NCBI GenBank assembly: GCA_021234155.1
Contig: JAJEKV010000049.1
Coordinates: 5,079,001-5,143,000, forward strand
Reading direction: 5' to 3'
Source of the DNA: Isoetes taiwanensis
Taxonomy: Eukaryota; Streptophyta; Lycopodiopsida; Isoetales; Isoetaceae
DNA: 64,000 nucleotides
Shown: in pieces, positions 5,795-59,880 of the stretch
Position numbering within the stretch: the stretch's first letter is position 1
How the letters are laid out: each line of letters begins with the position of its first letter
Notes under the pieces: generated by a model
The model's input: only the letters and a program-made list of their open reading frames with translations
Told to the model about the DNA's origin: nothing
Databases searched by the model: none
Made by a program: the position numbers and the translations under genes

Positions 5795-5880
5795 TCCGCT
5801 TGCTGCATTTTTGTATTGGGTCCCATAGACCGATTGGTCTCCGTGGACGATAAAAGTACCTTCCTTCCTTCCTTCCTTCC
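5795..5880 (+). repeat. LINE-A 3' terminus: hairpin plus (TTCC)n tail
   Basis: The element ends with a perfect small hairpin, AGACC-GATT-GGTCT, at about 5826-5839. CCGTGGACGATAAAA follows, and then five TTCC units. Matching ends occur at about 14,620-14,680 and, inverted, at about 32,468-32,545, but with a different simple-repeat tail. Confidence 0.75.
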
Positions 5881-6491
5881 TCAAAGCAAAGAAAAGAAGT
5901 AAGGAGATACTGGAATTGGTTCATACTGACTTGTGTGGACCTTTGAATGTCAGAGGTAGGACAAGCAAAAGGTATTTTATCACATTCATTGATGATTATA
6001 CCAGAAAATGTAAATGTTACTTGCTAGCCACCAAATCTCAAGCTTTGATAGCCTTTAAACAGTTTGTTGCTGAATCAGAAAGGCAAACAGGTAAGAAATT
6101 AAAGTGCATAAGATCTGATAGAGGGGGAGAGTATCTTTCAGCCAAGTTTAAGAGTTTTTGTATTGCAAATGGCATCAGGAGACAATTAACATGTAGATAC
6201 AGTCCCCAACAAAATGGAATAGCAGAAAGAAGAAATAGGACGCTTATGAATGCAGTCAGGTCAATGATTAAGAACAGTGGATTACCAAATTATTTATGGG
6301 AAGAAGCTTTATTGACAGCCAATACTATACAAAATAAGCTGCCTTCATCAAGCTTGCAAGGGAATATTCCTGATTTAATGTGGTATGGAGAAGGTTCAGA
6401 AATTGATTATGAAAAATTTAAAGTTTATGGCTGCCTGGCTTATGTTCATAAACCAGATGAACTCGTGGAAAAGCTTGATGCCAAAGTCTGA
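5881..6491 (+). pseudogene. Ty1/copia integrase core
   Basis: The copia frame resumes after the LINE. The DDE integrase core is visible: ELVHTDLCGPLNVRG, then FITFIDDYTRKC with the first Asp, IRSDRGGEYLSAKF with the second, and NGIAERRNRTLMNAVRSM with the Glu. The open frame runs about 190 codons and ends at 6491 in a frameshift; the C-terminal integrase text SEIGFLVGYDSHSKGYRIF continues from about 6484 in the next frame. The core itself is well kept. Confidence 0.88.
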
Positions 6492-6930
6492 GATTGGTTT
6501 TCTTGTAGGCTATGATAGCCACTCGAAAGGCTATAGAATTTTTATTCCAGAAAATAAAAATATTGTGACTAGTAGGGATGTGATATTCTGTGAAGATGTT
6601 TTGTACAAACATAGACGTCAAGTTCAGAAGGAATTGCCTACTCCTCAAGCTTCACAGATGACAAATAATCAAATTGATTATGAAGAGGAGGAGGAGGATA
6701 AAATAGATGGATTAGTCAGCGGATCAAATACCTCAAACTCGAGAGATCCAAGGCAAACGAAAGTTCTTGAAGCGGATAAAGCACCGAGAGAAGAAGACTC
6801 GAAAGAGGAGAAACGAGAAGCACAAAGACTGCAAGATGAAATTAAATTTGACAAAGAAATCTATGGAAGAAATCCTTTAGGTGGGGAGCGAAGATTGGAA
6901 CCGCTGCAACCAAATCAAGCAGAGGGATGA
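6475..6930 (+). pseudogene. Copia integrase C-terminal and linker region
   Basis: The reading continues as GFLVGYDSHSKGYRIFIPEN and SRDVIFCEDVLYKHR, the usual copia segment after the integrase core. An acidic, low-complexity linker rich in Glu, Lys and Asp follows, before the RT domain. It ends at a stop near 6930, and the RT frame opens at 6954. No catalytic role is expected of this part. Confidence 0.75.
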
Positions 6931-6953
6931 AATTGAAACAGTTATGGCAATAA

Positions 6954-7946
6954 TTGAAGATATTGAAATACCCAGAACAATCAGTTGAGCAGGCCTTAGA
7001 AAGTGTTAATGCAGAAGAATGGAAAAAGGCTATGCATGATGAGTTAAGCTCTTTTGCAGATACTCATACTTATGATGTTGTTGAGCAACCTGCTGGACAA
7101 AACATAGTTGGCAGTAAATGGATTTTTAAAATCAAAACCAATGCAGATGGTTCACAAAAATATAAAGCACGTTTAGTGGCTCAGGGGTTTACTCAAAAAC
7201 AGGGACAAGATTATGATGAAACTTATTCACCCATAGTAAAGCTCACTAGCCTAAGGGTATTGTTAAGTTTGGCCAATGCTCTTGACTATGAAATCCATCA
7301 CATGGATGTGAAAAAGCAAATTTTAAATGCTATACTAGAGGAAGACATCTTCATGAAACAGGCTCCTGGTTTTGAGAAAGGAAACAATTTGGTTTGGAAA
7401 TTGAATAGGGCAGTATATGGTTTGAAGCAAGCTCCAAGAGAATGGTATCTTTGCATAGACACTTTTCTAAGAGAGCAAGGGTTTGAAAATTTTCAAAATG
7501 ATGGTAACTTATATAGATACAAAATAGGAGATAAATTTTGTATTATAGCCTTGTATGTAGATGACTGCATCATGGTTGCTAATTCCACTCAAGTTCTGGA
7601 AGTTTGCAAAAATATTCTACAGCACAGATTCAAGACGACAGACTTAGGGCCCTTGCAAAAATTTCTGGGAATTGAGGTGATTAGAGACAGGAAAAACAGA
7701 TTGCTGAAACTAAAACAAAAAGGGCATATAGAAAATATGCTTAAAAGGTTCAATATGCAACAAGCTTGTACTGTCAAAACTCCAATTGTATCAGGCCATC
7801 GTTTAACTGTAAGTTCTGAGGTTGATGCAGATGAACTGGAGTACATGACACAGGTCCCATATCGTGCTCTAGTAGGGTGTTTACTGTACTTAAGCAACAG
7901 TACTAGGCCGGACATAACCTATCTTTGTCAATATCCCGAAGCGTAA
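6954..7946 (+). pseudogene. Ty1/copia reverse transcriptase
   Basis: This is an RVT_2-type domain of about 330 codons. Landmarks are GSKWIFKIKTNADGSQKYKA, LVAQGFTQKQGQDYDETYSP, the catalytic region HHMDVKKQILNA (the usual MDVKTAFLNG, altered), AVYGLKQAPREW, and an intact YVDD box at about 7554-7565. The domain runs into the RNase H region, where the frame breaks near 7930. The part from 7431 onward has a near-identical copy at 18,268. Confidence 0.88.
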
Positions 7947-18118: not shown

Positions 18119-18267
18119 ATTCAAATGCTTTAAGTCTTTATTTTTTCATGTTTACATGTAAATGAAGGGTTCACTTGACAGACCTTATTTCTGAAACCAG
18201 TGGTCATTTTGATTTAATATGATATGCTGCTCCTTTGTAATTGCTATTCAGATATACTGGCATATAT
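18119..18267. repeat. Truncated array unit ending at a duplication breakpoint
   Basis: A seventh unit starts here but runs for only about 150 bp. At 18,268 the array text GGCATATATGCT passes directly into copia RT text CTCCAAGAGAATGG, which belongs at about 7434. The two parent sequences share only GCT at the join. Confidence 0.85.
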
Positions 18268-19368
18268 GCTCCAAGAGAATGGTATCTTTGCATAGACACT
18301 TTTCTAAGAGAGCAAGGGTTTGAAAATTTTCAAAATGATGGTAACTTATATAGATACAAAATAGGAGATAAATTTTGTATTATAGCCTTGTATGTAGATG
18401 ACTGCATCATGGTTGCTAATTCCACTCAAGTTCTGGAAGTTTGCAAAAATATTCTACAGCACAGATTCAAGACGACAGACTTAGGGCCCTTGCAAAAATT
18501 TCTGGGAATTGAGGTGATTAGAGACAGGAAAAACAGATTCTTTGTGAAACTAAAACAAAAAGGGCATATAGAAAATATGCTTAAAAGGTTCAATATGCAA
18601 CAAGCTTGTGCTTGTCAAAACTCCAATTGTATCGGGCCATCGTTTAACCAAGTTAAGTTCCGAGGTTGATGCGGATGAACTGAGTACATGACACAGTCCC
18701 ATATCGTGCTCTAGTAGGGTGTTTATGTACTTAAGCAACATTACTAGGCCTACATAACCTATCTTTGTCAATATCCTCCGAAGTAGAAGATGCAGCAATC
18801 CTGAAAAGGTTCACTGGTTGGCTGCAAAAAGAGTATTAAAATATCTGAAAGGAACTCAAGATTATGGGATAACTTTCAATGATAATAATCTAGAAATGTA
18901 TGCCTATTCAGGATGCGATCAAGGCGGTGATCAAACGTAAAGGAAGTCTACTACGGGTTATGTGATTTTTTCTTGGGGGGCACAATAAGTTGGAGAACCA
19001 AGAAACAGTCTGCTATAGCCTTATCTTCAGCAGAAGCTGAATATGCAGCCTCATCTCTTTTGTCCAGAGAAATAATTTGGCTTAGAAGACTTCTAGAAGA
19101 GTTGGATATCAAACAGATAAATCCTACAACTATCTTTTCTGATAGCCAAAGTTGCATTGCAATAGTCAAAAATCCAGCTTGAACATGAGAGAACTAAACA
19201 TATTGAGTTAAGCTTGCATTACATCGAGATCAAGCAAAGAAAGGGCAATATCCAAATGATGTATATCAGAACCCGACAAACAAATAGCGGATGTTTTCAC
19301 AAAAGGGCTTCCGTAAAGTAAGTTTACTGCTTTTCAAAAGCGGTTAAAGGTTAATTGCTTATGCAATG
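18268..19368 (+). pseudogene. Copia RT/RNase H fragment, second copy
   Basis: This is a near-identical copy of 7431-8520, beginning inside the RT domain at APREWYLCIDTF. It keeps the YVDD box and a better RNase H region than copy 1, with SSAEAEYAASSLLSREI and FSDSQSCIAIV intact in one frame (about 18,973-19,182). A frameshift lies near 18,610 (copy 1 GTACTGTCAAAAC, here GTGCTTGTCAAAAC). It arises from tandem duplication, not a new transposition, because it has no start of its own. Confidence 0.88.
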
Positions 19369-35156: not shown

Positions 35157-35974
35157 TTTAAGTCTTTATTTTTTCATGTTTACATGTAAATGAAGGGTTC
35201 ACTTGACAGACCTTATTTCTGAAACCAGTAGTCATTTTGATTTCTGCTCCTTTGTAATTGCTATTCAGATACTGGCATATATGCTTCCTACTTTTTCCAA
35301 GACTACAATGTCACATCTAATGTTACTGCATGGTCTTTGTGGCTCTGGCATTGGCATTTTTGGTTTTGTCGCAGGCCTTCATGGACTCTGTTTGCTAGTG
35401 TATAAGTAGCAAGGGAAGTTCAGGCGTATTAAAGATTAATCGTCTGATTAAGTTTACATGGTTATAAGGATAACTTGTCTTGGACTTGTACTTTGGATAT
35501 CAGACTATAGGAACACGAGTACCAAGTTTGAATGCGTTCAGATTTTTGGATTGATAATACAATTGGATGGATTGATCAAGGCGATCTTTGACCTAGGATA
35601 CTAGGTTAGGCCGGGTTTTTTAGACACTTCAATTCTCTCGGTTTAACCGGAGTTGCTTGTGTCCTTCGGTCTATTATCCTATCGATCATGCATTCAATCT
35701 CTATATTGATTTATCTTAAACCAAAGATACTAATGACCGCTAAACTTTTACGAGGATTTTCTATTCGTTATTACGTAAGGATTTTTCAAAGAAGAAATCT
35801 TATAAAAGATTCTAATTCTTTAAGGCAACCTCTGCCACTTGGCTTAATACCAATGATCATATGCCACTCGGCCTGATAAATTATAAGTTACCAGAGAGAC
35901 TCACGCATGAACTTGGACTCAATTTTGACATAAAGACTATGCTACAGGGAATCATTAAACGCCATCAGAGGTAT
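35157..35974. repeat. Array unit U6, left part
   Basis: The start of a sixth unit, cut at AGAGGTAT by the CACTA transposon; it resumes at 44,073. The pre-insertion text (CATCAGAGGTATTTAGTCTG) is intact in U1 to U5. The part near 35,575-35,790 has several CAG/CTG-type rewrites. Confidence 0.85.
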
Positions 35975-35989
35975 CACTACAGGAGAATG

Positions 35990-36260
35990 AATAATCGTCA
36001 GAGAGCCTTTATAAAATAGACAACTGCCCAGGCCCTTATTCCTGACGAATATACTGACGAGTTTTATCTGACGATTTAACGTTAGAATAATCGTCAGATC
36101 ATTAGTCAGACATAGTCAGAGGAATAGTCAGTTGAATAGTCAGAGAATTAGTCATTTGAATAGTCATTTGAATAGTCATTTTGTTAGTCAGATAGTTCGT
36201 CAGTTAATCATAATATTAGTCAGTTTATTAGTCAATGCATTAGTTAGAATAATGGTCATT
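35990..36260. repeat. CACTA left subterminal repeats
   Basis: More than ten copies of a 7-bp motif TAGTCAG or close variants (TAGTCAT, CGTCAGA) occur at roughly 10-20-bp spacing, interleaved with AT-rich spacers. In CACTA elements such arrays bind the element-encoded DNA-binding protein. The same motif fills the right end. Confidence 0.85.
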
Positions 36261-36315
36261 TTATTGAAAATATTAACAATAAATAAAAATTGGTATTTTT
36301 CGTACTGCAAATAAA

Positions 36316-36360
36316 TGAAAGGAGCTCCAAGGAATCGAACCTTGGTTAAACCATTATCTC
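36316..36360 (-). other. tRNA T-arm-like sequence (B-box match)
   Basis: On the minus strand the text AACCAAGGTTCGATTCCTTG resembles a tRNA T arm and the RNA polymerase III B box. I find no convincing A box, anticodon arm or acceptor pairing, so I do not call a tRNA gene. It could be a tRNA-derived remnant or chance. Confidence 0.3.
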
Positions 36361-37196
36361 CAGTTATTCAAATAGATATATAAATAGCAATCAAGTAAGC
36401 CAACAACAATAAAAGAAATATATTTGCAAAACAAAGTTAAAATATGACATCCAATTATCTGTTTCATTCGCAATAGATGTAGCCATAACCAGATTTCATC
36501 ACAATATATCATACCTGTATTGACGATCCATTTTGAACCTTGTTCCCATTTTCGAGCCAGAATCAACTCTGCTAGTCAAGAATTTAAGGTGCCTAATACT
36601 AAGAACTGAATTGTTTCTGCATTTCCAAACCCCTAAAATATCACACAACCTGGTCTGTCCTGAAGCAACTGGCAGTGCAATCCTTCATTGCTATACTGTG
36701 CTGCCTTGTCTGGAGTATTGAGCGGCCTCTGCCGCTTTGCCTCTACATATGATTAAAAATGCCATATCCTAATCCTGTCTTTTGCTGCATTCAAAAATTT
36801 GATAGTAGAATCAAATTAGGGGCAAGCAAAACCCTCAAAAGCACACTAGATACTAGGCAGAGGGGAGAGAAGACTAGTTGGGAAAGCCATAAGTCTGAGA
36901 CAACCAAAACAAATCCAGCAATCAACGGAACTAATGTCTTAATGAAATCGAGCCGAGCAAACAAATAATCTAGGATAACCAAAGCAAGGCTACAGGCAAA
37001 CAAGAATTAAATCCTGACCTGAAAACAAATGGAGTTGGAAAATCGACCTTCTACTGCAGGCAAAGGAGGACAAAGCCAAGGCAAAGGAGGCAGAGCAAAG
37101 GCAAAGGGGCGGGCTGTACTTTAATTTAAGATCAAACTAATACATAATGACATGTTTTCCATAGAAATTCTGCCTTAGAAATTGTCATCAACATAC

Positions 37197-38257
37197 CACA
37201 ACAGGCCATGACAATACATTCTCAGGTGTAATTCCCTCAATGCATGGCTCTTCAAATGCACACTGTTTTGCAAGCGGTAACATTGCAGACACTGCCAAAA
37301 GGAAAAAAATAAATCATATCAGAAGAACTTCAGCTCCATATGTACTTTCTTTGTGCTGTCCAGAACAACCCACAACACAACTGTCTACTTTTCCTAGAAT
37401 GGACGTTAAATAACAGACACATACTTTACGGGCAACAAACGTTAATACTGAATCCTTACTATCGATTCCATATACTTCATGCCAGAAGTCAATGCTGTCC
37501 CTATAGCGGTCTGGGTTCGTAATAGGAGCAACATAAAGCTGCAACAGGACAAGACAAGGCATTAGCTTTTTGTCAATTCTCGGAATGCAGAGTACAACTA
37601 CTAAAACCAGTTTCTATTATGTATCTTAGCTATCATGATAGTTGAGACCCCTCTCTGACACATAGAACCTAGGAAAAGCAAACTTTTCATGCTCCATGGT
37701 GCTTAATATTAAGAGGAATACGCAACTCTCACATAAGCATCAACTAGGAGCTAATGGAAAGTTAATGTTTTTCTAAGGAAATCTTTGAAGATAAAGAATA
37801 GCAAAGTAAATTACATGAACATACAGTGGCAAATGAAGGAAGCATTAAGCCTCCTGGTTTTAGCCAACGATCTCTGGCATATATTACACTGCCCAGCATG
37901 CTCTGCACATTACAAACATAGTTGGAGGATTACACAAGAAAGTTGTAGGACTGTCTGTCAAATGAGCATAAGCCCACATACCTCATACAAAAGCATATAA
38001 CCCATCCATTCTGAAACAATAACATCTGCTTCCTCTTCCAGTTGCACTTCCTAAAAAGAAAACCAGTGGCTCTTTTGTAAGAAGTTAGAGCTAAAAGCAA
38101 TGAAATGTGATGCATGCCTATATTCTTGGTATCCCACTGCTGTATAAGAATTTACTGCAGGTCTGAAATTCTAGCCATGGAAAACAGGGTGTGCTAGATG
38201 ACAACAATAGGAAGGATAAAAATAACTAATTGTTACCTCAACTCGGCCCCATTCGCT
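37197..38257 (-). pseudogene. Captured protein arginine methyltransferase gene fragment (PRMT6-like), five exons
   Basis: Minus-strand exons with intact GT-AG borders join in one frame: the end of an exon reading GRVE (ending 38,237); 38,050-37,982, DVIVSEWMGYMLLYE; 37,902-37,825, YARDRWLKPGGLMLPSFAT; 37,538-37,460, LYVAPITNPDRYRDSIDFWH; 37,291-37,197, MSAMLPLAK and CAFEEPCIEGITPENVLSWP. The SEW...LYE segment is the double-Glu loop of type I arginine methyltransferases, enzymes that methylate Arg in histones and other proteins. The AdoMet-binding motif I and the THW loop are missing. The text closest in memory is plant PRMT6. The frame is uninterrupted over about 111 codons, which suggests recent capture. 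Confidence 0.85.
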
Positions 38258-38465
38258 TTCTGATGCTTGTGTTGATGCTTGTACGATGGCAAAACTTCAC
38301 CGACTGAGTGTGAATCCCCTGTTTACCATATCTGGAAAGCCCTATCGGTATGCAAACCTTCCCAAAATCATTCCGGCGGTCATGGATGCGGCAGAGGATC
38401 ATTCCAGAAACCTAACCCTACTGCCATTTTTTCGCAAACGTCCTAGCACTTTGAATTTTCTACTT

Positions 38466-38655
38466 TATTTTTAGCACACCAGCCCTACCGGGCCTACAGC
38501 CTTTCCTCAAATTCTAGCCTATCCACGTGTAATTTCCACCTCATCAAAATCTAAAGTGGCATCAATCTACACCATTGAATCTCTAGCTTCATAAATCAAG
38601 GGTCGAGAAAATTAGAAAATAGCCAAGAAAATAGAACGGAGATAGGATGAGTCGC
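38466..38655. repeat. Dispersed repeat R, copy 1
   Basis: Begins TTTTTAGCACACCAGCCC and continues with AAATTCTAGCCTATCCACGTG, CACCTCATCAAAATCTAAAG and GAAAATTAGAAAATAGCC. Two further copies lie at 39,025 and 61,051 in the same orientation. It has no coding potential. The boundaries are estimated from the shared text. Confidence 0.6.
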
Positions 38656-39024
38656 AATCCCTCTCCCAATTCCCTATTTTATTTCTCCTCCTTTCCATTT
38701 CTTCCCTGCCTCCTCCGTTTCCTGCTTCTTTCCATCAATTCATCGCCCCTCTGTTTCCATCTTTTTGCTATGGCGTTTTTACCACTACTTTGCTATTTTT
38801 TTTCTTACCTTTTTATTTGGTTTTCCTTTTATGATTTCCATATCTTAACCATAACTATTTAAAGTCATCTTATTTTATTCATATAACACAAATTCATGCC
38901 TAAGTTTTCCCATATATACCCTTACGCTTATTTTATTTTCTACAAACCCATTAGACATCCAGAACCATGATTAAACCCTTAATAATTTTAACCGCTAAAC
39001 CAACACCTCATTAATTATACCCTT
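38656..39024. other. AT- and pyrimidine-rich stretch inside the CACTA element
   Basis: Between the two R repeats lies pyrimidine-rich DNA with runs such as CTCCTCCTTTCCATTTCTTC and then AT-rich text. I see no gene, RNA or further repeat in it. Confidence 0.5.
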
Positions 39025-39215
39025 ATTTTTAGCACGCCAGCCTAACCAAGCGTGCAACCCTCCTTGTAATTCTAAGCTATCCACGTAGCATGTCCACCTC
39101 ATCAAAAATTGAAGTGGCATTAATTTTTGCCGTAAGATTCATTTTTTTTTCAAGATCTACGGTTAAGGAAATTAGAAAATGGGCAAAAATAGGGCACGGA
39201 GATACAAACTGTCAC
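39025..39215. repeat. Dispersed repeat R, copy 2
   Basis: Begins TTTTTAGCACGCCAGCC, then TAATTCTAAGCTATCCACGT, CACCTCATCAAAAATTGAAG and GAAATTAGAAAATGGGC. The order and spacing match copy 1 about 560 bp upstream and copy 3 at 61,051. Confidence 0.6.
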
Positions 39216-39457
39216 GACCATAGTTTGCCGATTTGAGCTTTATAAAGACCGCTTATTTTAAGAGTGAGGCAAAAATTCCCTATCAGGCGAAGGTATGCCG
39301 TGAAAGGTTTCATTCATTTGCATACTTCGGCAATGGCTCTTGCACAGATTGTTCGGCGTACTGGCGAGATTCCGAAACCATATGCCTGCTTCTAGCTCTT
39401 TTTTGAATTTGTAACTTCTGTCCTGCTTCAATATGAAAGTGGAACTCCACAAATTCG

Positions 39458-39548
39458 CAGCTCCAAAAGCCTGCTCTGGACCATAGTGTTTTTACAAATT
39501 TGCATCTCCAAAAGCCCGCTCTGGACCATAGTGTGTTTACAAATCGGA
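39458..39548. repeat. 45-bp tandem duplication upstream of the captured SerRS start
   Basis: The segment CTCCAAAAGCCYGCTCTGGA followed by CCATAGTGTKTTTACAAAT occurs twice in direct order. It lies just upstream of the captured start codon at 39,594, in what would have been the donor gene's 5' flank. Confidence 0.65.
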
Positions 39549-39593
39549 AGCAGAGTGCTAATCCATTTCTGACTATTGCCCTGGGCCACGGCA

Positions 39594-41040
39594 ATGGCAA
39601 GCACCATAGGAGTCGCCTTCAACCTTACCTTCGTTCACTATGCAGTCACAAAATGCCGCATTGTCGGCCCACAATTCCATCATAAACAGCTCTCGTATCC
39701 TGGTGGAATACGATTTCTGTGCAATGCTGTGGCGATAAACACTGAGAATGAGGCCTCAGCAGGTCCCAAGATTACCTTGCATGTTTTTTCTACATTTTTA
39801 TTTTCTGCTTGCTTAGTCTAGCATGTTTTTCTCAGTTGTAGGAAAAGATACTGGAAGTGGACCAAGCTGGCGAGCCAACGTCGATTTTAAATGGATTCTT
39901 GATAACAAGGACGCAGTGGCTGCAAATATTCAGTGCAGGAAATCTGGACTGATGTTGATTTACTTGTGAAGCTTTATGAACAATCCTGTAATCTGACAGC
40001 GGTAAGCTACATTTCTATTGTTAAATTGGATACCGTCTTGTATTGATGGTAAGAGCTTCATTCTCTTTTGAGATACTTGTGCATCTTTTAGATGGTCTTT
40101 CAGCTCCATTCTGCAATAAATCCTGTATTTTTTTTATCCTAGATTTATAGATGATTTAAAATCATGCATAAGAGTTACAACACGATTTTTTTGGCTCTTT
40201 TATGAAGGACTTCTCAGATACCAGAACTGCTATATTCAGCCTGTAATTATAAGATCCTTCAGATATTGTCCTCATAATTGTAAGGTTTCATCATATATAT
40301 GCCTCAAGATGAGCTCTTATTCACGCTCAAGCATTGATCTAGTCTTGGGATCTGGGAATCAGAACAAAATGGTCTTCATATGCATAATTACTTGGTTGGA
40401 AACCATGCTGCCAAGTCTGAGATTTTCATCTGAGATGCATCCCTGATCTCAGCCACATATCATGTCCCATATGATCAAAATCACAACACTTATTGTACTC
40501 ATGTATGGTATATCCTCAGGGTTTTTGATGACTCTGACCCAGTAGATATTTAGTTATCATATTCTTAAAATCAGTTGCTTTCTAGACTGTGAGGTTTCCA
40601 GAAGTGCTGAGCATGTATACAGTTTTTCTTATTATGTTTAGTGCTTATGCATTTGTTCTTAAAACTTGTTTCCTTTTGTTATAACTTTACTAAGTCTGTC
40701 TAGCCTAACACAATCAAGAACTGTGTAATATCACAGGAAGGCATAAGATCCGTGAGCAGAGAAATGCTGTGGCAGATGCAATGAAAGGGAAGCTAGAGTT
40801 GTTACAGAGGCAAGAGATTATAGAAGAAGGTATGTTGCTCTGCTTTATAGATTGTTCCATGACAATATTTGTATGCATTGCTTCCAGGTAAACAATTAAA
40901 GGAGCAATTATCTGTTCTCGAGGCTAATCTTACATCAGTATCGGATGTGCTTCAGCGGTAAGGACAGAGGATACCAAATATGAGCCATCCGGATGTTCCC
41001 AATGGTTCAGAAGAAGCAGCAGTACTGCAGAACATTGCAT
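39594..41040 (+). pseudogene. Captured organellar seryl-tRNA synthetase 5' gene half
   Basis: Four plus-strand exons with GT-AG borders. Exon 1, 39,594-39,762, starts with ATG and encodes a transit-peptide-like leader (MASTIGVAFNLTFVHYAVTK). Exon 2, 39,842-40,001, joins in phase and reads NVDFKWILDNKDAVAANIQ, then after a one-base frame change VDLLVKLYEQSCNLTA. Exon 3, 40,737-40,829, reads KIREQRNAVADAMKGKLE. Exon 4, from 40,888, reads KQLKEQLSVLEANLTSVSD, one TAA, then RIPNMSHPDVPNG. This is the tRNA-binding helical arm of plant plastid/mitochondrial SerRS, which charges tRNA-Ser. The catalytic motifs 1-3 are absent. It is a pseudogene by truncation, frameshift and stop. Confidence 0.82.
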
Positions 41041-41879
41041 GCATCAGCTTCAACATGGACAGGCCATCTACTGATGAGACAAAACATCTAATAAAAGGGA
41101 GAAAAGCAACTTGCCGCCACTAAAATTTGTTCATACTCTAAATGCAACCACTTGTGTTGTGCCATGAATGATTCTCGCCATACTGGAGAATTTCCAATTT
41201 CCAAGAGAGTGATGGTTCAGTCCTTGTTCCTGAGGTGCTACAACCTTTTATGGGAGGACTTAAAAGTATTTTGCCAAAGTCAGCATCATGATATTTGATG
41301 CCTAGGTCAATATTTATCCCAGTTTCTATGATGTTACTATAGCAATTTGAATGGAAATTGACGATATGGGATTTAATAACTCCACAATACACCTGTATGA
41401 ATGAATTGGGCTGATCTTCTGGATACCTTCACGTAAATGATTTCGAGTCACTCTTCTGTTCTTTTGTGAATGCATCTTTGTCTCTTTTTTACTCCAAAAT
41501 GCTTGACATTCAAAAGAAGAAATTCTATTTGTCGTCATGTCATCAAAAAGGTTTAATAATGGATTAACTTGATGCATGATTCATGCTCTTGGTAATTATG
41601 CAATTAGATGTCATAAGAAAGATGATCCAACATTTCTTTATATTGCATTAACCACCACAAATACAATTCAATTTATACTACTTTGCCCTATTTTTTTATA
41701 CCTTTATTTTCTATAGCCTCTGGCGTGCCTCTAGGGGGGCAAACCCTCGTTTATGTGGGTATGTGGGCATATTCAAGTATATGCTGGCATATACCTAGCA
41801 TATGCTGATGACTGCTAAAAACTGGCTGCTGCCTGTAAATGCTCGGTCATCCGCCGGACTTGGCTATGGCTTCTGCACC

Positions 41880-42140
41880 TCGGATTCTGCCCTCCCTTCC
41901 GCGCCTTCCGTCAGGGTTCTCTGCGTACAAAGAAAATGGAGGGACTTGACTGCGGCCAGAAGGGTTCAGTTCCTTGTAACATCTACTGGGCTGGACTCGA
42001 TTGCTTTCTTGGGCAACCATCTGATACGCGTCTATATAGGTTGGGGGAGTTTGTTTGAAGCAAATCGGGCATTCAATAAAGTTGTGAAGCCTATTGTGTT
42101 CAAGATGGAGTATGGGACTGCTTGCTCAAAAAATGGATGA
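41880..42140 (+). pseudogene. Captured PPR gene fragment
   Basis: The open frame 41,802-42,140 contains LTAARRVQFLVTSTGLDSIA and GLDSIAFLGNHLIRVYIGWG followed by SLFEANRAFNKVVKP. This is the text of a PLS-type pentatricopeptide repeat protein near its first repeats. Such proteins bind organellar RNA. The expected continuation (VFTWNAIISAH) is altered to VFKMEYGTACSKNG and stops. Only one to two repeats are kept, without the C-terminal E/DYW domains. No splice borders are needed, as these genes usually lack introns. Confidence 0.75.
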
Positions 42141-43660
42141 GCAAAAAGGTGGTTAGGTACTGAAGCTACAAGGTCGACCAGCTATGGTACAGGTAAGAAA
42201 CAAGGTCTGGGTATCAGACAATCTTAATCCCTTTTCCAAAACCTTATTTGCATTTTCCAGTTCTTCTCCCTCCACTCCAAGCTTTCAAAGTAATTAGAGT
42301 ATATGTATATGGTTTGATGGTATTGAACTTCTTCATGGCGTTCCAGTTCGAGGTAGCATCTTCTTCACTTTGGCCTCCTTACTCTATAGAGGATGTATGG
42401 TCGGATTTTTAAGAGGAAAAAGGGGTTGTTTTGCTCCAAGAGCATACCAAATTTCTAATCCACTATAGAGGGCATGATCTTTTTACAATGACATGTTTGA
42501 GAAATTCATGAATATGGAAGAAATAGGCAAGCCATTGCTCAAAGATCTGGAAAGAATTAAATATTATCTACATTGGAAGACACTTGAAGAAGCTCTGCAT
42601 AAATATATGTGTGAACAAATATTCTTTCTATAGATTTTTGTACGTACCGGCACTTTTCCTAGCAAATCTCAACTCTACCAGCTAATTTCCTATTAATCTT
42701 CACATGTACAAGCTTATTATAGGACAGTTTCTATGAAAAAGTTTGTGTACCAGGAACATAGAAATTTGTACCGGCAAAATTGGCATGCGTAGGACTTTTC
42801 CCACCATTGATTTCAAACCCTTCCCCTTTTAGCAATACTATTAATGCTTTGAAAAATCACCAAAAAGCTCGGGCAATTGCTTACGTGAGCATGTATAGGG
42901 CACATCAGGCTGGGTAGTAACTAGTGTACCCCAAGTTTGGCAAAACCTTAGGCTTGACTTTGACAAAGTTTATGACAATGTTTTTTACTTTCTTTTTAGA
43001 GATCATGCACACGTTGGGTTTTAGGCCCATCTTTTGCGAAAGAGCGTGGAAGTCGGGGCTCGAAAATAATGATGCCCTTAACCAGTAACAATGCCGCCTT
43101 GTATTTCAGACAAGTTAATAACTTATACAAGTTAATATTTCTATTATTATAACAAGTATTATTATAATGTAATGGACGGTTGTTCCACAGTCAGCCCTAA
43201 TAGACACATGACGTGTGTCCTCCTTTCAAACACAGAAATTCATCCTTCATACATTGTTTCGTAATCCTTGTTCCATGACGAGCACCAAAAATTCCTTCAG
43301 GCCAATTTTCATAAAGTCATGGTATCAAGTATTCTATTGTTTTTGAAGTAGCAATTTTGATTGGCTGTGGAAACATGACTTGGAAATATAATTTAAGCCA
43401 CTCCACCCTCTGGCCATGGAGGGCAACCCTCCGTGCGCAGCACCTTATTTTCTTTTGCATAATATATCCCTTGATCCTTTTAAGAAGCATAAACTCTATG
43501 GTATTCCTTTTCAATGTCTTAGAACACACTAACACCCTTCCCCATGAGATAATCTCATTACAACCCACATTAAGCCTAAAGGGGCCAAAGCCTAAATATG
43601 TTATATCACCCTACTAAAATGCAAATCATATGTATTTGTAGGCCACTAGTAGCCATCGGG
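42141..43660. other. Non-coding interior of the CACTA element
   Basis: About 1.5 kb with no recognisable gene or repeat. Short open frames on both strands do not resemble known domains and show no splice-consistent joins that I could follow. If a decayed transposase remains it is not recognisable by eye. Confidence 0.5.
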
Positions 43661-43669
43661 ATGGCAAAA

Positions 43670-44045
43670 TAGGAGATAGTCAACATAATAGTCACAAAAT
43701 TAATCAGTGTAATCGTCAACTTGTAAGTCATCTAATTAGTCAGATATTTAGTCAAACATTTGGACAGACAGATAGTTAGGTTACTAGTCAGACTCTTAGT
43801 CAGCAAAATCGTCAGAAATGATTCGTCCGACTACTCGTCACCTCATTAGTCAGATTATTAGACAACTAATTAGTCAAGGTAAACGTTAGTTTAAACGTCA
43901 GGAAATTCGTCAGATGCTTATTAGTCAGTTTATTAGTCAGATTTTTCGTCAAATCCAAATGTCAGTTTGTTATCAGATCAAGCGTCATATTAATAGTCAA
44001 ATAAGCATTTGACAAACTATTTTAGAGCCTCTGACGATTTCTCTG
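43670..44045. repeat. CACTA right subterminal repeats
   Basis: About twenty copies of TAGTCAG-like heptamers (TTAGTCAG, TCGTCAG, ACGTCAG) spaced 10-20 bp apart, ending in CTCTGACG repeats next to the terminal inverted repeat. The heptamer lies in the same direct orientation here as at the left end, so the subterminal arrays are not simple mirror images. Confidence 0.83.
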
Positions 44046-44072
44046 ACGTTTAGCTGTCATTCTCTTGTAGTG

Positions 44073-44516
44073 TATTTAGTCTGATCCTGCTGATAATATA
44101 AGGGTTTTTACTTATTGGGTTGGGTCTGGCCTCTGCTGTATAGTAGGGGTCACCCCTCCCTATTTATACAATCAAATTATCCTGAGGTCAACCTCACCTT
44201 ACGGGTGGTGGTAGGTTTTTTTTTATAATTATGAACATCACGTTATCCTGATGCATTGAACATCATCATGTTGCTCTAAAATGACATAAAATAGCCAATG
44301 GGGCACTTGTTTACTATATGAACATGCTCATTTTACCTTAGAAATGTTAAACATGGATTTCACGTAAGAAAACATACATATGTGTACTTTGGCCTCATCC
44401 AATTTCGATTTATAAGGTTAGAAACTTTTAGTAAATTTGTGGGTCTCATTATTATATCCAATTACCTTGAATATACATGCATGCATGCATGTTTGCCATG
44501 TGTTGGCTTTTCGATT
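44073..44516. repeat. Array unit U6, right part (array end)
   Basis: U6 resumes after the CACTA element and runs to GTTGGCTTTTCGATT. There it passes into the 180-bp repeat instead of continuing to the unidentified exon. This is the end of the array. Confidence 0.85.
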
Positions 44517-55581: not shown

Positions 55582-58062
55582 CTAGGAAGTTGCTTGGTTT
55601 TTCTTCAAGTCTTTCAACAAGCCAACAACCTGTTGCATTGTTGGTCGTTTCGAAGGGAACTCAGCAGTACATAAATATGCAATTCGCAACATTTCGAGCA
55701 TTTCCTCTGTAGACTCTTCACTTAAAAGCCTTGGATCTAGTGCCTTGTGACTGCGTTTATCACGAACTAAGGTCCTTACCCAGTTAATCAGCTTACCAGC
55801 ATAATTTCCTTTCCCAGTGGCAAGCTCAAACAGCACAATTCCAAAGCTGTAAACATCATCCTTTGCTGACAGATCCTTGCTCTCTATGTCTCCTGATTTG
55901 TACTCCCCTTCCTTCATGGCGAATAGTCATGCAATAACAGTGGCTGCCAAATGTGATTCATATTCTGCATCTAGCAATATGTTGCTTGACTTCACACTAG
56001 AATGCACAATTGGCGGAGAACAGCCATGATGCAGGAAAGATAAAGCCCTTGCAGTACCAAGAGCTATTTTATGTCTAGTAGGCCAGCTAAGGTGATCTTT
56101 TGGAAACTCAACCTCAGGCTGTTCCCATGTATCCATGGTCCAATCTTCTGTGTTCTGTATTCCTTCAGGAAGCTCATGAAGTTTGCTATAAAGGTCACCA
56201 TTTTCAAAATACTTGTACAAGAGAAGTTTTTCTATCCCAACCACACAATAACCGAGTAAAGGAACTAGGTTTACATGCTTCAATTTTCCAAGAGACTCAA
56301 GCTGCTGTGGCCCTCCTGTACTTTTGCCTATAATTGTTATAGCAATTTGAATATCACCTGGTAAGGTTCCCTTAAAAACAGTACCATAGTCACTCTCTGC
56401 AACCTGGCAATCCTTGCTGAAGTTAAACGTGCCAGATAACAAGTCGGAAAATGTGAGATTTGAAAGTGGCTTCTCAAATACCACAACAGGAATTGATGTT
56501 GGATCCTTGATGCCTGTGGCCCAAATGCTTGGATCAAGTTCAGAATTATATGGTCCACAGGCAGAAGCATACTTTTCTTCTTTGAGTTTCTTCGGAGAGC
56601 TCCAACTCCGCTGGCACAATATTACTACCATGAAAAGGCCTGATATGCCTATCAAGCTGCCTAAAACAACTCCTATAACTCCTCCAGTTGAAAGATGAGA
56701 ATGTGAACTCATGCCTGCACTGTTTGTTGTGTTATTTGTTGTGTTTGTGCTTGTGCAATTCACTATACATAGTCTGTCATTTCCCACAGTCGCATTAGAC
56801 CCATATCTATTATTGAAATCTGATGAAACAGATCCACTAAGGTTATTATGTGATAGGTTCACGTGATGGAGCTTATCCAAAGTCTCTATGCCACTTGGGA
56901 TCTCACCACTTAGACTGTTATATGAAAGGTCCAAATACTCAAGCAATACCAGCTTAAGAATTGATTCAGGAATACTTCCACCTATGTTGTTATGGGATAG
57001 ATCTATCAGGGAGAGGTTCCTCAAGTCCCCAATGCTATTGTTAATAGATCCTCCAAGCCCAGTTGATGACAGATTTACATATTCCAGATGTTTTGCTTCA
57101 GCAATTTCCAGAGATCTTGCATTTAGATATGGATTATATGCCATATTCACACGCCTCAATTGAGAGAAATTGCTCAAATCTATGGGACCAGCTGATGCAC
57201 TCAAATTGTTTGACGAAACATCTAAAATTTCCAAACTGCTCCATTTCTCAAAGACAGAAGAAATACTTCCATTAAATTGATTATTACTCAGATTCAGCTC
57301 CTTGATATTTGCATTCGAGATATTTGGAAGGTCCCCTGTTAATTTATTATGATCCAATCTAAGAATACTAAGAGAACCCACTGACCATACTTTCTGGGAT
57401 ACTTCCCCTGTGAAGTTGCTATTACTTGCCCATAACTTTTCTAGTTTAGAAGAGTTGGAAAAATAAGGAAACGACCCATGAAACATATTATTTGAAAGGT
57501 CAAGTACCTCTAGACTGGTGCAGTTGATGAAACTATCCATCAGAACACTTCCAAATCCGCTGCTGCTAAGATTTAAGTTGGAGAGGTTCCCCAAGAGACA
57601 AAACTGGCCTGAAATAGCTCCTGTAAATTTGTTATTTGACAGGTCCAGCTTCTGTATCGGCGATGCATTTCCTCTCAGAATAGAAAGTGTTGCATTGAAC
57701 CCATTCGAGGACAAATTTAAATTTGTAAGATTGCTCAATTTCCATATATCTTGCGGAACGGTACCATATATAGAATTGTTGAATAGATTTAACTGTTTCA
57801 AAGAACTCAATTTGCCGATGGAACTGTTAGGAATCACACCATGAAGTCCATAGCTTGTAAGCTGGATTTCTATTATGCTCTGATTTCTCGCATCACACTG
57901 TATTCCTTGCCAGCCACAATATGATCCAGATTCGTTAAATGAGGGGTTAAGTGATTTCATAAAATTTGTAATCGCCGTAGTTTCATTTACCAACGCTTCC
58001 GCACACCATAGCGATGCGAACAGAAGAAAAGTCGCGCCAACAGCTATCATCTTATGTAGCAA
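55582..58062 (-). pseudogene. LRR receptor-like kinase with degenerate kinase domain and one in-frame stop
   Basis: A single-exon frame of 826 codons. It has a signal peptide (residues 1-23), an N-terminal cap with CGWQGIQC, about fourteen leucine-rich repeats (65-425), a membrane span (459-484) and a kinase-like domain from about 550. It matches the plant subfamily of At2g24230 (EDWTMDTWEQ, HKIALGTARALSFLHHGCSP). The kinase lacks the VAIK Lys (IAITII, 573-578), has HSS for the catalytic HRD (687-689), and ATV for DFG. Codon 712 is TGA (55,927-55,929), after which the same frame resumes and ends KKNQATS. The activation-segment text before SGDIESKD is short. It is either a recent pseudogene or a receptor truncated inside its pseudokinase. 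Confidence 0.85.
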
Positions 58063-59880
58063 GCTTTTAAAGTACTAAAATCAAGCGCTGAAGAAGACGA
58101 AATTGACCCAAATGAATGGAAATAAAGCTAGAGAAGCGAATGCAGATTTTGCGTACAAGCACTTGACTACTCTCATCACTGAGACCGAAAAGGCAAACTA
58201 AACTGCACCCAATGAAATATTCAACGATACAGATTGAGAAATTTCCGGCATGCCAAGAAGGAAGTGATGATCATACATTATAATAGACAAGAAAAAAACG
58301 CAGCACCAACTGCTCGGGGCCACAGTTCCGGTAATTGTGAGATGACATCCAGAGGAAATTAGGCTATGCATGTAAGAAATTTCTTACAAGAATGAGTCGT
58401 TAAACGACGCTAGAACAGAGTAATCACATGCCGAATCCAACCGACCACGATAAGCATTAAAAGCTATGACCCAGTTAAGAAACTTCTTAAATGGGCCACC
58501 AAAAGTGGATCGCCATAGCCAGAGAACCGGGGATCGGCGGCGACGGAGCGGACTCATCGGACCCATAGAAGGCGCCAAAAATCTTTTCCACGTAATATAA
58601 TACAATACATATAATAAGATAAGATAAAGATAAATATATTTAGTTATATATTTTTTTATTACAACCATGGTGTATATTTTGCTACTAAGACCATGGCGTA
58701 TATTACTAGACGACAATATTTTTATGCTTTCTACGTATGGGCAATTGGGCATGTGGACATTCTTGGCTTCGGACATAGAGAAAAGACATAGGGGGCCCCT
58801 TCCACACTTGCCTTTTCCATGGAACCCGAACCCGACGGCACCACCTTTGGCATGTATTTGACGCGTAAGTCTGTCCATACATCAGTTGCCTCTGTTGTCT
58901 CTCTAGATTACCTCTTCATACATCAGTTGTTTGTTGTCTCTCTGTATTACCCTTTGTTCTCATGTGTGCCTCGCACTTGACAACTACAATGGCGTGTTGT
59001 TGTGAAAAGGCTGAGGAAGAACACGTGCTACTGGAATGATTATTAGTATTCAACAATGACATTCCTGTCCCTTATGCTTTTGCAGTCTAGCATTTCAAAT
59101 TGGATATAACTTTTACTCCAAATCATGGCCTCAGCAAACCATTCATCATGTGCTTCAAACATTTGGTTCTGTAGTTGTTCTCATTGTATTGCCTTCGCTT
59201 TTGTACTTAAAATAATAGCTCTTGTTTTGGATTGCTCCCCTCAAGGAGCAATTCGATAAGAAGTGAGTACTTTTGACATCTTAAGGCGCATTTTGGGGTA
59301 TCTGAAGATTAGCGACTATAGATTAATGACTATAGTCTTTCTTTCCTTTTTTGGCAGTAGAAAACTCTTTCATAATTTTCTATGTGATTGTGGGCCATGT
59401 GATTGAAGCCCAACCTCAATTTCTTCATCTCACACATGCATTGCTTATTCGAACTTCTTAAGAGTCAAACGGGAAGAATTCCTACTTCAAAATTGTTCAC
59501 AGAATTTCCATACAATTGGTTCTTTTAGTCAATCTTGTAAACTTTGTTATAATTAAGAGTGGAACTTTGTTATAATTAAGATCTAGAATTTCATACTCAA
59601 TACTAGTACAAATGAAAATTATTGTCTCATCTTGGCTGAAATAAATGGTGCAAAGTAACTAATATGTCTTGCATTATGGTAACTTTTATGTGGAGCTCAC
59701 ATGCACAAAAAGGGAAAAATGATAGCTGCAAGAGGTTGTGACATCCTGGGCAGTGCTGCAAATTTTATACCAACCATGTACATCAATTTGTGGAATTGTA
59801 GTAGCTGGAGGGCAAATCACCTATGTTACATCACTGTTCACGCCCATCTCCCTTGCTGTTGTTATTTTAGGGGCTCGTGT
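58063..59880. other. Upstream flank of the receptor kinase and intergenic DNA
   Basis: About 1.8 kb. The first few hundred bases would hold the promoter of the minus-strand receptor gene, but no clear TATA box or other site stands out. The piece 58,470-58,600 is GC-richer and on the minus strand reads KIFGAFYGSDESAPSPPIPG, which I do not recognise. The remainder is AT-rich without recognisable features. Confidence 0.45.

Follow-up and report, generated by a model that had tools for sequence, protein, structure and literature searches.

In the lycophyte Isoetes taiwanensis, an 8.1-kb CACTA transposon that contains pieces of three host genes is, in our reading, a nest of gene-carrying elements and not the product of one element that captured three genes; we put the probability of this at roughly 0.87. 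The element occupies positions 35,975-44,072 of a 64,000-nucleotide stretch of assembly GCA_021234155.1 (contig JAJEKV010000049.1, 5,079,001 to 5,143,000 of the forward strand), which is hereafter called the window and whose numbering is used throughout. The gene pieces derive from an arginine methyltransferase (PRMT), an organellar seryl-tRNA synthetase (SerRS) and a PPR gene. The SerRS and PPR pieces both lie within a 4.4-kb block that is absent from the closest sister element found (L001), and they are carried there by two units, A and B, each of which recurs in the genome between unrelated flanks. The original prediction had ascribed all three pieces to capture by the CACTA element; this held for PRMT, which is carried in the CACTA lineage, but not for SerRS and PPR, given the block missing from L001. 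The features are as follows.

35972-35974, no strand: left target duplication TAT, a 3-bp copy flanking the CACTA element.
35975-36260, plus strand: CACTA left terminus with subterminal repeats (from hexamer counts and genomic left-end matches).
36261-37119, no strand: internal CACTA-family sequence, common to sister L001.
37120-38248, minus strand: captured PRMT gene segment with introns, 95.7% identical over 1125 aligned positions to the donor-like locus L004.
About 37979-38053, 37819-37923, 37455-37544 and 37194-37298, minus strand: the four PRMT exons.
38473-38811, plus strand: small unit-A-like insertion (0.34 kb), absent from L001, its left part 72% identical to the unit A left end.
39024-41730, plus strand: unit A, a Helitron2/HINE-like mobile unit with SerRS, which here lacks the 3' tip that reads TTTTTGCTAG in other copies.
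39584-41512, plus strand: captured organellar SerRS segment, internally deleted and with an in-frame stop; donor-like gene L009.
41731-43450, plus strand: unit B, a member of a Helitron2/HINE-like family of high copy number, with its 5' tip trimmed where it meets unit A at TGCC.
41934-42111, plus strand: captured PPR gene piece, 178 bp, 97% identical to the intact PPR-DYW gene L029.
43451-43672, no strand: CACTA backbone after the block, common to L001.
43673-44072, minus strand: CACTA right terminus with subterminal repeats (from hexamer counts and genomic right-end matches).
44073-44075, no strand: right target duplication TAT, a 3-bp copy flanking the CACTA element.

The outermost element is a CACTA (En/Spm) transposon of the non-autonomous kind, which lies within a tandem array. 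It opens with CACTACAGGAGAATGA at 35975 and closes with TGTAGTG at 44072, the CACTA...TAGTG terminal inverted repeats of the superfamily, and the TAT on both sides is its 3-bp target duplication. Joined together, the flanks corresponded to an empty site in five sister units of the array (at about 10781, 13108, 21602, 23932 and 28910), with 95-97% identity over 791-793 alignment columns; in the fifth unit the empty site was seen as a 27-bp match, and that of the 13108 unit has one G-to-A difference. A scan of the whole window for CACTACA/TGTAGTG pairs with equal 3-bp flanks at 1-20 kb spacing returned this single pair. The subterminal regions are dense in the hexamers TAGTCA, TCGTCA, TGACTA and TGACGA, with 16 in the first 300 bp (mean of 0.3 and maximum of 3 in 2000 mononucleotide shuffles) and 17 in the last 400 bp (mean 0.4, maximum 5). 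The borders, empty sites and strong subterminal repeats had all been predicted from the letters alone, and each was recovered here. The array itself spans 9800-44500 of the window; its units are long, about 2.3 kb and composite, and most of those compared are 95-100% alike, with some parts less so, the CACTA element having inserted into one of them.

Ends of this type are numerous in the 1.66-Gb assembly, where CACTACARGAGAATGA occurs 373+354 times, compared with 11+12 times for the reversed pattern. Read inwards, the ends of the element are CACTACAGG and CACTACAAG. Genome searches with the two ends scored 40 places of 367 candidates on the left and 40 of 281 on the right, and among these 40+40 places 21 left ends (including that of the window) pair with a same-strand right end within 20 kb, at spans of 3.0-18.3 kb. 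No transposase open reading frame (ORF) was seen inside the element, as the prediction had it: the longest stop-free stretch in 36250-43700 is 113 aa, and PF02992 had no match within the element among the 150 of 2312 genome candidates scored. The absence of Transposase_21 from the element itself is expected of a non-autonomous copy.

The PRMT piece, on the minus strand as predicted, belongs to the CACTA lineage, because the same intron-containing segment is found in several sister CACTAs (L001, L002 and L003). Its four exons, when joined, matched PRMT structures in the PDB (phmmer, best E=3e-25) and Pfam PRMT_C (6.6e-9); a single-exon query against the PDB was weak, while exon-joined queries gave matches. 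The PRMT6-like label was borne out in part. The window exons alone slightly favor PRMT1/PRMT8-type proteins (3e-25 to 4e-24) over PRMT6 (1.2e-23), whereas for the longer string from donor-like L004 PRMT6 is the top PDB match (1.2e-45), so that the label rests on L004. Four of the five matched rows of the L004 PRMT have no stops; the fifth begins at an exon joint and has a TAG, which is also present in the window and in L001. Stop-containing PRMT exon fragments, with 69-72% identity to the query, also recur at C1007:13887535, C927:234366, C1056:14054405, C1056:7410018, C963:10666700 and C1018:21989065, and are perhaps another amplified PRMT-bearing family.

Sister L001 (C1018:38,767,408-38,771,555) is a CACTA element with the same ends that carries the PRMT piece. 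It aligns to window positions 35,989-38,248, 38,248-38,472, 38,812-39,030 and 43,443-44,072 and has none of 39,031-43,442. With the window it shares 96.2% identity at the left end and 96.7% across PRMT; the backbone pieces to the left and right of the block are 96.8% and 98.0% identical (the latter over 615 aligned positions, 43443-44072); the internal CACTA-family sequence at 36409-37119, common to both, is 86.5% identical over 788 alignment columns. The L001 site of the block is T-rich, reading CCTTATTTTTTAAC..., compared with CCTTATTTTT followed by AGCACG... at the left junction of the window and ...CACCTTATTTTC at the right. Sisters L002 and L003 also hold PRMT, with different internal boundaries. 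As PRMT is present in L001-L003 while 39,031-43,442 is absent from L001, the block arrived separately, and PRMT is the only host segment captured by the CACTA lineage. An additional 684 bp in L001 was considered as further PRMT sequence and rejected: by eye, the L004 sequence that should follow resumes after it, which points to an insertion in L001.

Elsewhere in the genome, each of the three pieces has a likely donor gene, namely L004 for PRMT, L009 for SerRS and L029, a PPR-DYW gene, for PPR; a comparison of this kind had been proposed with the original prediction. DNA alignments of the PRMT and SerRS pieces to L004 and L009 pass through introns, which makes these captures of genomic DNA. 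As judged from sequence, a coding function for the pieces within the element is not evident.

The SerRS piece, predicted as organellar and on the plus strand and identified as such, begins ten bases upstream of the start codon (near 39594) and extends beyond the C-terminal exon. Its joined exon pieces matched Pfam Seryl_tRNA_N (1.1e-9) and, weakly, SerRS in the PDB (0.0015). In donor-like L009 the exons run in order from start codon to C-terminus (by eye) and, when joined, match PF02403 and the catalytic PF00587. On its left, the captured segment is bounded by L009 base 1288 in all four unit A copies compared (window, L006, L007 and L008), and in L009 a run of Ts directly precedes that boundary; this fits, without proving, an insertion of A beside the gene followed by read-through. 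L007 and L008 retain a middle part of SerRS that the window copy does not have.

Unit A has its own conserved ends. With 40 places scored of 1378 genome candidates for the left end, its start agrees to within three bases among the window, L006, L008, L011 and L013, preceded by T runs, and by eye the copies have unrelated flanks. Its left end reads AGCACGCCAGCC, and the right end in L006, L008 and L012 reads (T)TTTTGCTAG, that is, CTGGCGTGC[CT] followed by TTTTTGCTAG and Ts. The left-end sequence GCACGCCAG is thus an inverted repeat that lies inset by about 11 nt on the right, making GCACGCCAG/CTGGCGTGC an asymmetric pair (by eye). Ts adjoin four of four left ends and three of three right ends, and the 5' end forms a hairpin better than its shuffles (z -3.3). 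Unit A starts AGCACGCC within T runs, which differs from the canonical Helitron (Helitron1), with its 5' TC start and insertion between A and T.

Unit B, which carries the PPR piece on the plus strand as predicted, is similarly delimited. The piece has no Pfam match on its own and was identified from its 178 bp at 97% identity to L029, which encodes an intact 823-aa PPR-DYW protein. The left (41,726-41,920) and right (43,242-43,451) regions of the unit are each repeated in the genome (40 matches scored of 5256 candidates). The left end starts GGGTTGCCCC in a T-rich stretch in 9/9 copies (L017, L018, L020 and L030-L035). Right ends agree in eight copies (L014, L016, L020 and L036-L040), all eight of which keep the tip and read to GTGCGCA[GC]CACCTTG or a near variant and then at least two Ts; the tip is lacking in L015. 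Both ends fold better than shuffles (z -2.9 at the 5' end and -2.2 at the 3' end), the 5' fold having been computed from other copies because the window's B is without its 5' tip, and GGGTTGCCC/GGGCAACCC form an asymmetric repeat (by eye). L017, L018 and L020 have the same PPR-bearing form and are 82-87% identical. L019 was dropped as a PPR donor; it looks like a diverged B copy, 73% identical to L017 and reaching its left end.

The copies of A and B, together with L001, largely refute a capture of all three genes in succession by the CACTA element itself (Pack-CACTA transduplication). Such a history would accommodate the position of all three pieces inside the CACTA ends, and Pack-CACTAs with DNA from several loci have been described (PMC8903248, to the extent of the text available). 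We nevertheless regard it as highly improbable, as L001 is without the SerRS/PPR block while both flanks are intact, the SerRS and PPR pieces move in other families, whose ends are conserved in their own right and whose flanks are unrelated, and no CACTA ends were seen around the other A and B copies in L006-L020 and L030-L040 (fetched stretches of 0.5-9.5 kb). A nest of three gene-carrying families would instead imply three separate captures, one by each family. The block at 39,031-43,442 was also considered as a nested Pack-MULE, with CCTTATTTT at both junctions, and rejected: the element's self-comparison contains no end inverted repeat for it, and other copies have different, T-rich flanks.

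We propose that units A and B are non-autonomous rolling-circle elements of the Helitron2/Helentron (HINE) type. In line with this, Helitron_like_N is abundant in the genome, with 150 matches among the 150 of 1813 candidates scored. T-rich targets and subterminal inverted repeats are given as HINE traits in the portion of PMC4067079 available to us, and A and B resemble the HINE elements (DINE-1-like) outlined there and in PMC5148889 in their asymmetric inverted repeats, T-rich sites, terminal hairpins at three of four ends (both of B and the 5' end of A), non-autonomous nature and host gene pieces. They differ from HINE, as far as these sources describe it, in the hairpin at the A 3' end, which is not significant, and in that no Rep/helicase partner with these ends was identified, ends not having been compared. 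A target duplication consisting only of Ts is possible for both units. It is unlikely that A and B instead move by cut-and-paste, as elements having short inverted repeats and T-rich duplications. Unit A does have 9-bp inverted repeats with T runs on both sides and no significant hairpin at its 3' end, but the repeats are asymmetric, sequence conserved between copies continues beyond the right repeat (TTTTTGCTAG in A and GTGCGCAGCACCTTG in B), and B has hairpins at both ends.

The junction between the units suggests how they came together. Unit A's ...GGCGTGCC is followed directly by B's ...TCTAGGGGGGC, with the last ~10 nt of A and the first ~12 nt of B missing and TGCC present in both. Beyond the right end of B the CACTA backbone resumes, with no trace of the A tip. 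The missing 3' tip of A points to a joint move of A and B as a single chimaera: B may have inserted into the T run at the 3' tip of A, the two would then have been fused by a short deletion (TGCC-TGCC), and the chimaera, bounded by the 5' end of A and the 3' end of B, would have entered the CACTA element, which could in turn be mobilised in trans by a Transposase_21-encoding relative. We rate a chimaeric move of A and B, taken by itself, at about even odds. The full account, in which two Helitron2-type families, each with a different host gene, moved as one chimaera into a PRMT-bearing CACTA, is more tentative, at somewhat less than an even chance. A nest could also have formed with A and B inserting stepwise and later deletions removing the A 3' tip and the B 5' tip, a history that we consider possible at odds a little short of even. 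The TGCC microhomology at the junction and the deletions common among these copies are in keeping with it, as is the single fused A-B copy; the lack of an A 3'-tip remnant past the B 3' end speaks against it, in that a second deletion would be needed.

A related arrangement is found in a second CACTA of the family, in C345 (46,355-59,660; L023/L024; 13.3 kb), the exception among the A and B copies. Two B left ends (52,942 and 56,937) and one B right end (57,814) surround PPR-coding stretches there (Pfam PPR_2 1.6e-24, L024), so that a PPR-bearing B unit lies inside a CACTA element. Two 5' termini there precede one 3' terminus, as in the chimaera model. The portion of PMC5148889 available (the legend of its Fig. 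7) describes chimaeric Helitrons with two 5' termini, formed by a self-insertion route. The A-B fusion is like these in having the 5' end of one element followed by the 5' region and 3' end of another, and unlike them, as far as that source goes, in joining two different families and in being known from one fused copy.

Several observations weigh against the nest and its proposed history. No second A-B fusion was seen among the 40 matches scored of 5256 candidates, nor any Rep/helicase element bearing the ends of A or B, the ends of such elements not having been compared. The 3' end of A folds no better than shuffles (z 0.1), and the ends of A partly resemble those of a plain inverted-repeat transposon. 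The empty site of the block is shown by one sister CACTA, L001, in which about 13 nt at the right junction lack an equivalent in the window. No source was traced for 42,112-43,241 inside unit B. L005 is a colinear degenerate copy of L004 (89-93% over about 7 kb), and L004 may itself be a duplicate and not a functional PRMT gene. Finally, the ends of the window element differ from those of transposase-bearing relatives, the left being 71-78% alike over 109-153 bp and the right 67-68% alike to two of them over 365-401 bp.

These relatives were found among elements with the same ends, including autonomous ones, which the original prediction had suggested seeking. Five long end pairs with the same terminal 16-mer were chosen from 100 listed places and about 10 kb inside each was read; three of the five carry Transposase_21 and DUF4218 (Pfam E-values of 6.7e-29 and 1.2e-17 in L042, 1.2e-28 and 2.4e-8 in L045, and 4.8e-8 and 1.6e-18 in L043), and their 3-bp duplications are TAT, ACA and TGC. 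Over its first 42-43 bp, the right end of the window element is 83-93% alike to ends of these relatives. They are kin at the level of the family and not the direct parent. In L041 and L044 no transposase was seen; five stop-free stretches of at least 110 aa gave a kinase match alone in Pfam, and others were read by eye. The longest end pairs were tried as autonomous partners and set aside, with no transposase seen in the 18.3-kb element (L021/L022), which by eye holds a Ty3/gypsy-like element, in the 13.3-kb element (L023/L024), with its PPR stretches in a B unit, or in L025, which gave one sub-threshold zinc-finger match. Beside the transposase, all three relatives have a SET-like ORF, identified with Pfam.

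L042, 5637-6509, minus strand: SET-like ORF, E-value 2.8e-4, just under the cut-off.
L045, 6129-6884, minus strand: SET-like ORF, 8.8e-6, over the cut-off.
L043, 3779-4665, minus strand: SET-like ORF, 5.2e-6, over the cut-off, broken in frame.

Between L042 and L045 the dN/dS of the SET-like ORF is 0.134, compared with 0.192 for the transposase part and 0.150 for DUF4218, and a C-terminal piece compared between L042 and L043 gave 0.131; these values indicate that the ORF is kept under selection. The values of 0.52-0.64 for L043-L045 are unreliable because the pieces run past the frame break. The SET-like ORF is as constrained as the transposase and, from codon comparisons, under purifying selection. 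It has no sequence match in the PDB, and an AlphaFold model was uninformative (pLDDT 30). SET genes are known in HarbingerS and MuDR elements of Phytophthora (PMC12730594, in the part available), and the literature searched for CACTA elements with SET, as far as it was accessible, yielded no such case.

Pack-CACTA elements have been reported in Arabidopsis, rice and maize (PMC8903248, PMC13317346, each in the portions available). Measured against those accounts, the window element is like a Pack-CACTA in its CACTA ends, 3-bp duplication, lack of a visible transposase, intron-containing host segment and several copies, and unlike one in that the CACTA lineage took just one of the three gene pieces, nested elements having brought the remaining two. 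CACTA elements of Chenopodium similarly contain captured host gene fragments (PMC8978399); in the available text they are described as CACTA captures, whereas here nesting explains two of the three pieces. In the literature searched, to the extent of the texts available, we found no report of such gene capture in ferns or lycophytes. Pack-CACTAs with several source loci and Helitrons with host genes are both known kinds of element; what makes this case of interest is the stepwise assembly, together with the correction that it brings to tallies of CACTA gene capture. Elsewhere in the window, stop-free stretches at 5829-7943 and 18241-18666 resemble by eye pieces of a Ty1/copia-like retrotransposon, and a 715-aa stop-free stretch at 55930-58074 on the minus strand reads by eye as a receptor protein of the LRR type.

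A count of the genes enclosed by CACTA ends overstates CACTA capture in this case, as two of the three came by way of another kind of element. Surveys that define elements by their outer ends alone could share that error, which comparison of sister copies corrects. In one plant genome, the likely donor genes, the three carrying families and the transposase-bearing relatives together supply the full chain. If the proposed history is true, elements from different transposon classes, all of them carrying host genes, would be joined step by step into a single vehicle for a CACTA transposase to move, and the autonomous members of that vehicle's family would in addition encode a SET-like chromatin protein that is under purifying selection.

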